The notes beneath the pieces were generated by a model, which worked only from the letters and a program-made list of their open reading frames with translations, searched no databases and was not told the origin of the DNA. The translations under genes and the position numbers were made by a program. From contig JALVUD010000013.1 of the NCBI GenBank assembly GCA_027035765.1, forward strand, positions 1 to 40,389: a DNA stretch of 40,389 bases. The letters run 5' to 3'. This document shows, in pieces, positions 9,795 to 15,697 of the stretch. The DNA comes from Campylobacteraceae bacterium. GTDB taxonomy: Bacteria > Campylobacterota > Campylobacteria > Campylobacterales > Sulfurovaceae. Position 1 is the stretch's first letter; every line of letters starts with the position of its first letter.

Positions 9795-10266
9795 GCCGCA
9801 CTCGGCGCATCTGATTCGGTACGGAAGCATACACACCAACGCCCCGCCTATCATCCCTACCGTCTTGGTGGAAACGCATACGGGAGTACAATCTACCAAA
9901 ATTCTTCCACTTTGATCAGAACTTTATATTTTCTTCTCTCGTTCCATGCTCTGCGTGGGAATGTATACGCAAACCCCAACGATCCAAAACCGCCCTGGAA
10001 CCGATAGCATGTCTATAGGAATAGAACCCTCTGAAAACCGGATCGATAAGTCTATCTTTTCCTCCAATAGCGGAACATTTTATATGGATAACGGCCGTAT
10101 TGCCGATAGCACAAAACAAAGGATAAGGGGATTTCGTATGAAGATTCAGTAGAATAGGACATAATATGTCATTTTGTCATGGTATTGGAAATAGCAGCAC
10201 ATTTCAAATCTTCTGCTATTTGGGGATATTAGGGGTGTTTGGTATAAAAATTTCATACTATAAATA
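9795..10266. other. Non-coding, repeat-derived stretch at the border of the AT-rich insert
   Basis: I see no credible gene. Decayed palindromes are present: CCCTACCG..GGTGGAAACGCATACGGGAG near 9858-9890, and GTTCCATGC TCT GCGTGGGAA (9940-9961) followed by TGTATACGC, a form of the REP-like repeat CGTTCCCACGC..GCGTGGGAATGC seen in many proteobacteria. Near 10022 is CCCTCTGAAAA, also found at 15604 and 32204. A 9-base inverted repeat, AAATAGCAG/CTGCTATTT, lies near 10189-10222. AT content rises from about 9900 onward. An AT-rich promoter-like region (TATAAA near 10257) precedes the HNH gene. Confidence 0.45.
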
Positions 10267-10273
10267 GTTATGT
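10267..10273 (+). other. Integron-type core site GTTATGT at the start of the nuclease insert
   Basis: GTTATGT fits the integron core consensus GTTRRRY and is the exact reverse complement of ACATAAC at 10992-10998. In integrated gene cassettes the leading core and the R'' box of the trailing attC are complementary because they come from one circular site. It lies 20 bases before the HNH start. Confidence 0.45.
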
Positions 10274-10292
10274 GTCACAAGAGGAGTAGTAA

Positions 10293-10997
10293 GTGACGTT
10301 TGAAGATTGGATGAGACATCGAGGCTTATCAGAATCATCCATAAAGAAATATGAGGGTGCAATTAGCGGCGCAATGTCCGAGTGGGCCATTGATGGCGGT
10401 ATTATGGATGGGCCTCTTACATCTATTTTGAGTCATAGTCGTTTTGAAGCCATTGCCATTAGGTTGAGAGAACTTCCAATCTATCAAGAGCGGAATGAAC
10501 GTGGCCACAATATGTACAATAGTGCATTGAATAAATATGCAGAATACCTACTTGAAGGATTTGATTCAGACATAGAGACGGATGTTGAAGAAATACTGTC
10601 CGAAGATAATATTACTGACACAGAAAAAGCAACATTACTTAAAACCAGAATAGGGCAAGGAAGCTTTCGTCAAAAATTAATATCAATTTGGGGAGGTTGT
10701 GCTGTAACAGGGTATAAGGATGCAACAATGTTGGTTGCTTCGCATATTAAGCCTTGGCGTGCATCATCAAATGCTGAACGGCTTGATGGTTACAACGGTT
10801 TGCTTTTGTTGCCTACTTTAGATAAGGCTTTCGATGCTGGTCTAATATCATTCGATGAAACAGGCAAAATAATGATTTCGCCTTTTCTTCAATCACCTGA
10901 CGAATTAGGCATTACTGACTCAATGGCAGTTAAACTAAAAAGTGAGCATCAAGTGTACATGGAGTTTCATCGTGATTCAGTGTATCGCAACACATAA
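10293..10997 (+). CDS. HNH endonuclease of restriction type
   Basis: The product is 234 residues. The GTG start at 10293 follows AGAGGAGT. The N-terminal 100 residues are helical (FEDWMRHRGLSESSIKKYEG) as in restriction-like HNH proteins. The C-terminal HNH_2-type domain is recognised from GCAVTGYKDATMLVASHIKP (residues about 140-160), then the NGLLLLPTLDKAFDAGLISF block. It should cleave DNA with a single metal ion; the final catalytic position of the motif appears non-standard and needs alignment. No methyltransferase lies beside it, unlike most type II systems, so it may act on modified or foreign DNA. The stop codon is embedded in the ACATAAC box of an attC-like site. Confidence 0.75.
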   Translation: MTFEDWMRHRGLSESSIKKYEGAISGAMSEWAIDGGIMDGPLTSILSHSRFEAIAIRLRELPIYQERNERGHNMYNSALNKYAEYLLEGFDSDIETDVEEILSEDNITDTEKATLLKTRIGQGSFRQKLISIWGGCAVTGYKDATMLVASHIKPWRASSNAERLDGYNGLLLLPTLDKAFDAGLISFDETGKIMISPFLQSPDELGITDSMAVKLKSEHQVYMEFHRDSVYRNT

Positions 10998-11074
10998 CAA
11001 GGCACTCGTTCATACGCAAACTACGCTGCGCTTCATTTGCGCCGCACAGCTTGGTCATTCGAATCTACTTAGAA
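10992..11074 (+). other. attC-like recombination site between the two nuclease genes
   Basis: The R''-like box ACATAAC (10992-10998) is followed by AAGGCACTC, an imperfect hairpin with CGCAAA..TTTGCG (11017-11043) and then AGCTTGG (11048-11054), the order typical of attC sites. It ends with CTTAGAA (11068-11074), complementary at six of seven positions to the TTCTAAC box after the next gene. The spacing from AGCTTGG to the last box is longer than usual, so the site is either degenerate or wrongly delimited. It contains the only GC-rich stretch between the two AT-rich genes. Confidence 0.45.
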
Positions 11075-11090
11075 TAAAGAAAAGAGAAAA

Positions 11091-11840
11091 ATGGACAAGG
11101 CATTGTTAAGCCATATTAAGGGTCATTTGCGGTCAGCTGTTGCACTAAAACAAGCAATGGATGCTGCGATTTCTTCTGCTAACGAAACCCATTGGAGATA
11201 TGTTGGATATCGGTCCTTCATGGAAAAGTATCAGCAAATAGTTACTTCTGTATCAAAAATAGTCGAAATCACCGCTCCAATAGGGACTTGGGATATTAGT
11301 AAAGTAAAAAGTTCTTTTGAGACTCCAGGACTCCTCCAGAAAGAATATTTTGAAGCTGTTTATACAAATCTTCTCATTTTGATTGCCTTTCTAGAACATA
11401 CACTTGGGGTTAAGTCTGATGAAACAAGAAGTCTGGTCGATTTTTTTCAAGCAAATATGCGAAAAGCTATTTTCGAAACGCCTAAGTATGAAAAGCAAGT
11501 CCAAGATGTTATAGAACAACTTCTAATTGGGCGTGGTATGAGCAGAGGAATTGACTATGAGAGAGAAAAGGGACGTGTAAGAGTATCAATAAAGGAGGTT
11601 GTGCCAGATTTTATCATTTACAGGCTGTCCTTAGCTATTGAAGTGAAATTATGCAAAAGTTCGTCAAAAGCCAAGTCTATAGTTGATGAAATCAATACTG
11701 ATATCCAATCTTACAGTAAATCGTATGATAGAATTGTTTTTATTGTCTATGACATAGGAGGAATCCAGAATGAAGAAGAGTTTAAAAATGGTCTTGAGAC
11801 AGAGAATGGAAATATTCAGGTAATTATAGTAAAGCACTGA
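11091..11840 (+). CDS. Putative PD-(D/E)XK nuclease, AT-rich
   Basis: The product is 249 residues, preceded by AAAGAGAAAA. Residues 1-160 are helical with no recognised domain. The C-terminal part carries a likely PD-(D/E)XK core: VVPDFIIYRLSLAIEVKL gives PD, then E-V-K after one beta strand, followed by a helix (SIVDEINTDIQSYSKSYDR) and a strand (IVFIVYDIGGI) in the expected order. Proteins of this build are found in restriction and other defence loci. Composition and codon use match the HNH gene upstream and differ from all other neighbours, so both arrived by transfer. Function is inferred from the motif only. Confidence 0.65.
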   Translation: MDKALLSHIKGHLRSAVALKQAMDAAISSANETHWRYVGYRSFMEKYQQIVTSVSKIVEITAPIGTWDISKVKSSFETPGLLQKEYFEAVYTNLLILIAFLEHTLGVKSDETRSLVDFFQANMRKAIFETPKYEKQVQDVIEQLLIGRGMSRGIDYEREKGRVRVSIKEVVPDFIIYRLSLAIEVKLCKSSSKAKSIVDEINTDIQSYSKSYDRIVFIVYDIGGIQNEEEFKNGLETENGNIQVIIVKH

Positions 11841-11865
11841 AATTCTAACAATTGGGTGCACTTTG

Positions 11866-12060
11866 TACTGGTTCCCACCGTCCCCTGATAGGAACCCATA
11901 CGAGACTCTCTGTGAGTACAACAAACGTTCCTATTGCTAATATAACCCCTGAAAAGAACTGCAAGCTAAACAACGTAAAAATCGGAGAGTATCAAAGGAT
12001 GACAAGATATGTCATCTAGGTACTCCCGCCAAGATGGTGGGAAGGAGAGGAAAGTGCCCC
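11866..12060. repeat. REP-like palindrome remnants between the nuclease gene and the cupin gene
   Basis: The left end, GGTTCCCACCGTCCCC..GGAACCCATACGAG..CTCTGTGAGTACAACAAA, is closely similar to 15536-15590. A perfect hairpin GATGACA AGATA TGTCATC lies at 11998-12016. The right end, TCCCGCCAAGATGGTGGGAA (12024-12043) then GGAGAGGAAAG, matches the palindrome at 15663-15683 and its flank. The same two modules in the same order at both loci suggest one composite repeat in different stages of decay. Confidence 0.6.
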
Positions 12061-12071
12061 ATACCACCCCC

Positions 12072-15522: not shown

Positions 15523-15535
15523 CTTCAGTTTTTCT

Positions 15536-15697
15536 GGTTCCCACCGTCCCCGGCGGGAAGCCATACCTGGCTCTGTGAGGACGACAAAACAATCTCTTAT
15601 GGAGCCCTCTGAAAAAATGGAAGTCGGAAAGCATGCAGGGGTGACTACGTGTGTTGGAGGCATTCCCACCGAGGCGGTGGGAACGAGGGGAAAGACT
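15536..15697. repeat. REP-like palindromic repeat between convergent mqo and hemC
   Basis: Left module: GGTTCCCACCGTCCCCGGCG then GGAAGCCATACCTGG and CTCTGTGAGGACGACAAAA. Right module: the nine-base-pair hairpin TTCCCACCG AGG CGGTGGGAA (15663-15683), flanked by GGCA on the left and CGAGGGGAAAG on the right. The right module is the commonly seen CATTCCCACGC..GCGTGGGAACGAG type of REP-like element. Lying between convergent genes, it may also stop transcription from both sides. Confidence 0.7.

Follow-up and report, generated by a model that had tools for sequence, protein, structure and literature searches.

Introduction

CALINs, which are integron cassettes occurring without an integrase gene (intI), are thought to originate either through loss of intI or through off-target insertion of cassettes (PMC8618304; PMC9024848). 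They have been reported in other vent Campylobacterota, namely Sulfurovum sp. NBC37-1 and Sulfurimonas autotrophica (PMC10295459), and IntegronFinder 2 by default recognizes them by two attC sites and no intI (PMC9024848). Storage of anti-phage defence systems in integrons has also been described (Darracq 2025; Getz 2025; Kieffer 2025; all as cited in PMC12444791). Integrons in Campylobacterota, CALINs, integron decay and the carriage of defence genes in cassettes are accordingly already described.

The locus examined here lies in a stretch of 40,389 nucleotides (contig JALVUD010000013.1 of assembly GCA_027035765.1, hereafter the window) from a bacterium of the Sulfurovaceae. As in CALINs, cassettes are present without intI, but the locus differs from them in keeping a recognizable attI and in possessing no more attC sequence than one decayed site and half of a second. 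It does not reach the at least two attC sites without intI by which IntegronFinder 2 defines a CALIN, and it gives no covariance match; falling below the two-attC default, it is probably missed by that program. In common with the integrons described as defence stores, the window holds cassettes of defence type, although here they are fixed in a decayed campylobacterotal integron and their defence role is predicted. We propose that the insert very probably represents what remains, at the attI-proximal end, of a chromosomal integron now devoid of its integrase, and that it carries an HNH nuclease cassette and probably a second nuclease cassette.

Results

An AT-rich insert between the ABM and cupin genes

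The relative G001 (L009), with a 95% identical lsrK, has no insert at this place: about 30 bases lie between its cupin and ABM genes. Because of this spacing, about 2.28 kb of the window can be recognized as foreign (Table 1). The ends of the insert are approximate, as the intergenic stretch between the two genes is short and has itself diverged. Within the genus, lsrK was found by this search in G000 and G001 only, and gain of the insert is consequently not polarized against its loss. The G+C content is 0.35-0.41 within the region and 0.55-0.69 outside it, and both nuclease genes are intact. Inspection of both junctions by eye revealed neither an IS end nor a target duplication. Dispersed repeats (such as TCTCGTTCCatGCTCtGCGTGGGAATGtATAC and GGTTCCCACCGTCC...) occur at 9856-9918, 9938-9970, 11868-11925 and 15534-15588, and those flanking the remnant are also present near integrons of relatives (L109, L116).

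An earlier, sequence-only reading of this DNA had pointed to its AT-richness, to a series of cassette-like motifs and to the search for an empty site in relatives, all of which are borne out. GTTATGT precedes the GTG start of the HNH gene by 19 bases (20 had been given), and its exact complement ACATAAC, overlapping the HNH TAA stop, is followed by AAGGC, a hairpin and AGCTTGG; gene 2 is bracketed by CTTAGAA and TTCTAAC (11843-11849). The extent first assigned, 10267-11849, proves too narrow, since it left out the attI region described below. GTTATGT and ACATAAC occur once each in the window, and a GTTxxxx motif paired with its complement around the HNH gene arose in 0.9% of shuffles in which the flanks were shuffled. 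Taken alone, the pair is evidence of limited weight and suggestive only.

Table 1. Features of the insert, in positions of the window
Feature	Position	Strand	Remarks
Entire insert, as delimited by the empty site	9795..12071	.	Between ABM and cupin genes; ends approximate
attI site with intI/cassette promoter region, an internally shortened copy	10060..10269	+	Assigned by homologous copies; ends ...ATAAATAGTT
Left cassette joint GTTATGT (G^TT)	10267..10273	+	Cassette homology of L039 and L040 begins at exactly 10267; short match in L041
Cassette 1, predicted HNH endonuclease, 234 aa, GTG start, intact	10293..10997	+	PF13391, E 3.5e-11
attC of cassette 1, decayed, by homology	10992..11063	+	1R ACATAAC 10992-10998; 2R ATTCGAA 11057-11063 (expected GTTRRRY)
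CTTAGAA, candidate start of cassette 2, ambiguous	11068..11074	+	6/7 complementary to TTCTAAC; alternative ATTCGAA at 11057 (end of attC 1)
Probable cassette 2, predicted DpnII/MboI-type PD-(D/E)XK nuclease, 249 aa, intact	11091..11840	+	PF18742, E 3.9e-14; PADLOC Aga_Helical-REase, E 5e-11
Left half of the putative cassette-2 attC (TTCTAACAATTGGGTGCAC...)	11843..11867	+	Cut off by dispersed repeat starting at 11868

The leader of the insert corresponds to the attI region of related integrons

The leader in front of the HNH gene is 75-78% identical to copies located at two other loci of the same genome (on contigs C2 and C47), in congeners and in members of the family. About ten more copies were found in the family, mostly ending in ...AATAAATAGTT (...TATAAAATGTTCACACAATAAATAGTT) and then followed by different genes, with those at C47, L113 and L115 being degenerate or shifted at the GTT end. 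Averaged over pairs of copies, identity falls from 75% in the last 46 bases to 35% in the first 30 bases after the GTT. At its other side, the leader of the congeners G006 and G008 directly adjoins the start of an intact IntI gene read from the opposite strand (P0001; the two copies are 96% identical), and in G004 intI is represented by N- and C-terminal fragments only. Sites of attC type lie downstream of attI in relatives (L110 3809; L108 5058 and 5813), where the covariance model R1 described below finds them at 32-39 bits, two of these three sites belonging to its training set and L108 5813 lying outside it. Moreover, one cassette that directly follows attI in G006 follows an attC in G004, with an identical GTTATACTTAC joint (GTT). 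Most of these relatives are represented by draft assemblies, with contigs that break off shortly past attI.

On the basis of the abutting intact intI, the downstream attC sites and the common cassette joint, we assign the leader by homology as attI together with the adjoining promoter region. The congener integrons (G006 C42, G008 C32 and G004 C61) have this region in common with the window but differ from it in that intI beside attI is intact (G006, G008) or broken (G004) and in that the cassettes are different ones; in G006 and G004, intact attC sites were found as well, unlike in the window.

The HNH gene is probably transcribed from a promoter within the attI region; on the + strand ahead of the gene, a simple scan returned no sigma-70 match. 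The attI region also includes a 33-bp inverted repeat, AAATAGCAG...CTGCTATTT, at 10189-10221, which is largely conserved in the other copies and is perhaps a candidate protein binding site or regulatory hairpin.

The HNH gene belongs to a family of integron cassettes

The closest homologues of the HNH protein come from Gammaproteobacteria (Zhongshania, 85%; Methylotetracoccus, 76%) and from a proteobacterial MAG (70%). In all three cases the homologous gene sits behind an attC-type end (...GCGTTATGTGTCA, ...TACGTTATGTGTCA and ...GGCGTTATGTGACA), and homology to the window (L039, L040, L041) runs from GTTATGTG / GTTATGT onward, with none before it. Cassettes are joined at G^TTRRRY, a pattern to which cassette 1 conforms, and its left joint is common to the homologous cassettes behind attC-type ends. 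Judged by these comparisons, the HNH gene is an integron cassette.

The attC of cassette 1 has lost its crossover base

The segment spanning the end of the HNH gene (10992-11059) aligns without gaps to an attC of the Thiolapillus brandeum plasmid pTBH13 (NZ_AP012275.1), with 61 of 68 bases identical and a local score of 101, as compared with 22 for the rest of the window. Copies of this attC type are 88-89% identical in two Campylobacterota genomes and 79% identical in a third, and the pTBH13 type is 93% identical to an intact Campylobacterota site. The cargo of the plasmid array is likewise defence-like (TIR, caspase, FRG and toxin-antitoxin genes). The array differs from the window in being plasmid-borne, in having many cassettes and in retaining an intact GTT, whereas the crossover GTT in the window reads ATT (11057); no cassette of HNH or DpnII/MboI type is annotated in it. 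The plasmid (L077) measures 13.5 kb and has no annotated intI; roughly nine attC sites are interspersed with its small cargo genes, which form TIR/caspase, FRG, cytidine deaminase, GrpB and toxin-antitoxin cassettes.

Where the segment in the window departs from one pTBH13 attC, four of the seven changes are CG to CA on the top strand, equivalent to C to T on the bottom strand. The bottom strand is the one that folds during recombination, and these changes may represent a deamination signature.

The covariance model R1 was built from 22 attC sites, with the window and C2 sites held out; as the full-length alignment yielded no RNAalifold structure, an arms-only alignment was used instead, and this showed strong covariation. 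The model assigns 30-39 bits to many recognized attC sites, including the non-training sites L108 5813, L041 4342 and L049 8637, and 13-21 bits to divergent ones (L048, L040, L039, L028), for which it is weak. The attC in the window scored at background even in an unfiltered search, and matches across the whole window were at chance level. Over the entire host genome, in which other attC sites were to be sought, R1 reported a single one, at C2 (16 bits, E 4.5). An Rfam search at the gathering score produced no match, and a home-made attC scan gave output that was mostly noise.

R1 scores low on divergent sites, and the attC in the window is known by homology and not by structure. The sequence-only reading had itself named a score no higher than background as evidence against cassettes, and such a score is what was found. 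We attribute it to decay because of the homology to verified attC sites, and by this homology the element reads as a true but decayed attC.

The host assembly has three attI loci and no integrase gene

No intI exceeding the TIGR02249 cut-off was found in the 47-contig host assembly, the best match reaching 58 bits against a cut-off of 265. Searches of this genome with PF00589 and TIGR02249 returned only Xer-like or other tyrosine recombinases, and an IntI from a congener used as the query led to the same two best places only, neither being a close IntI. The gene is absent from the assembly, and a copy could at most lie in an assembly gap. More broadly, an IntI over the cut-off is present in 21 of 298 Campylobacterota genomes.

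The three attI loci of the host genome (window, C2 and C47) all lack intI, and the congeners G004 and G006 have two or three attI loci. At the C2 locus (L028 3495-6260), an AAA ATPase, a PIN-like protein and others are encoded in a cluster ending in attC. The C47 locus (L027) carries FRG and GmrSD_N cargo, with no attC seen, and of intI shows an N-terminal trace only. Orthologous C2 loci of G000 and G001 share their flanks and differ in their cassettes, as expected of integrons. The orthologous C2-type integron of G001 (L113, contig C187) contains a nuclease-like cassette and a terminal attC reduced to its left half, a decay of the same kind as that of cassette 2 in the window.

Such a multiplicity of intI-less attI loci could also mean that attI and its cassettes were copied or moved as a unit, without intI, by way of the dispersed palindromic repeats that lie on both sides of the remnant, rather than that intI was lost in place. 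The empty site in G001 is compatible with an event of this kind. However, both flanks show C47 and C2 to be orthologous to congener loci, one of which (L108) still has a broken intI, as fits loss in place, and the junctions of the insert bear no visible trace of a target duplication or IS end. We consider transfer as a unit possible, if on the whole improbable, and favour loss of intI from an integron that stood at this site.

Gene 2 is probably a second cassette

The stretch behind gene 2 resembles the left half of an attC. It contains CTAACAATnGGnTGCAC, a pattern chosen after the fact, which is found at this one place in the window and has an exact counterpart in a true G004 attC (L108 5058). 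The right half was not found, and R1 scored this site at background. A 16-mer from this site that matched one viral contig was rejected as a terminator-like hairpin.

Gene 1 alone might be a cassette, gene 2 having arrived separately and CTTAGAA and TTCTAAC having come to flank it by chance. Consistent with this, no relative of gene 2 was found in a recognized cassette, a search of 397 Campylobacterota genomes giving weak hits only, and no homologues were detected in plasmids, phages or viral contigs; in addition, the start joint is ambiguous between CTTAGAA and ATTCGAA, and no complete attC was found behind the gene. Yet gene 2 occupies exactly the position of a next cassette, in the same orientation and with the same composition, its 3′ end shares the above pattern with a true attC, and a half attC also terminates the orthologous C2-type array in G001. 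Separate arrival therefore seems to us unlikely, and the matching ends and half attC suggest that gene 2 is probably a cassette.

Both genes are predicted to encode defence nucleases

VcaM4I is an EVE-HNH modification-dependent endonuclease (PMC7897488), and residues 100-233 of the HNH protein match it (PDB 6yex) with an E value of 3.5e-37. The two HNH domains are homologous, and the catalytic block ASHIKPW...NGLLL...DKAFD is invariant in nine homologues of the window protein. Unlike VcaM4I, the protein has in place of the EVE sensor a helical domain of 90 residues that matches no known sensor (EVE, SRA, wH). Because the structure model is confident only to about residue 90, with the HNH domain poorly modelled, the N-terminal domain alone was read; it has a weak likeness to Xer recombinases (Foldseek probability 0.87, E 0.53). 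Our best guess is that the HNH protein would serve as a type IV enzyme, restricting foreign DNA in a modification-dependent manner.

The single-sequence structure model of gene 2 was unusable (pLDDT 44.5), and no solved structure related to it by sequence was found. Read directly from its sequence, the protein seems to keep a PD...EVK motif, and it is probably another defence nuclease.

Discussion

We infer the following order of events for the former integron in the window. A recombinase of the IntI family would have integrated the HNH cassette into attI at G^TT, with the second nuclease cassette probably added behind it. Later, intI would have been lost, attC 1 would have lost its crossover G, and attC 2 would have been truncated. 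Through these three changes the genes would no longer be excisable and would have become immobile in the AI-2 locus, where the ABM and cupin genes flank them. With intI lacking and the crossover base of attC 1 mutated, recombination activity is expected to be absent.

The sequence-only reading had envisaged an integrase-less array of two nuclease cassettes outside an integron. The searches of the host genome agree with it that the integrase is missing, and the HNH gene, with its homologous cassettes and decayed attC, stands as a cassette, whereas for gene 2 the support is weak, consisting of matching ends and half an attC. The location outside an integron has to be abandoned: an attI region adjoins the cassette, which makes the locus an integrase-less integron remnant and not an insertion at an unrelated site.

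The latter type of event, in which an IntI acting in trans places cassettes at a secondary (attG-type) site where no integron ever stood, is a recognized route to CALINs (PMC8618304), and it would accord with the lack of intI nearby and in the genome and with the empty site in G001. At such a site the junction would lie in neither attI nor attC DNA. In the window, the left junction is instead a 210-bp attI region that is present beside intact intI in congeners, and not random DNA, which largely refutes off-target insertion and makes it very improbable here. That an ordinary AT-rich horizontal insert acquired its cassette-like motifs by chance, as short motifs alone might, has a negligible likelihood in view of the 68-bp attC homology, the repeated attI and the homologous cassettes elsewhere.

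What is unusual about the former integron in the window is that attI has been retained while intI and the attC crossover have been lost. What is new is a remnant that is marked by attI and missed by attC searches, together with the presence of several attI loci per genome. A more doubtful reading of these loci is that the genus keeps several separate attI platforms in each genome, supplied in trans, now or in the past, by one IntI; if true, single defence cassettes would be distributed among several chromosomal loci, where attC decay would fix them after the loss of intI.

Cassettes can thus persist after their integron has decayed, in a state that would escape standard attC searches, and such remnants can be located through their attI sequence. 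As one genus holds intact, broken and integrase-less integrons, some of them at orthologous loci, the fate of defence-type cassettes after the loss of the integrase becomes traceable.
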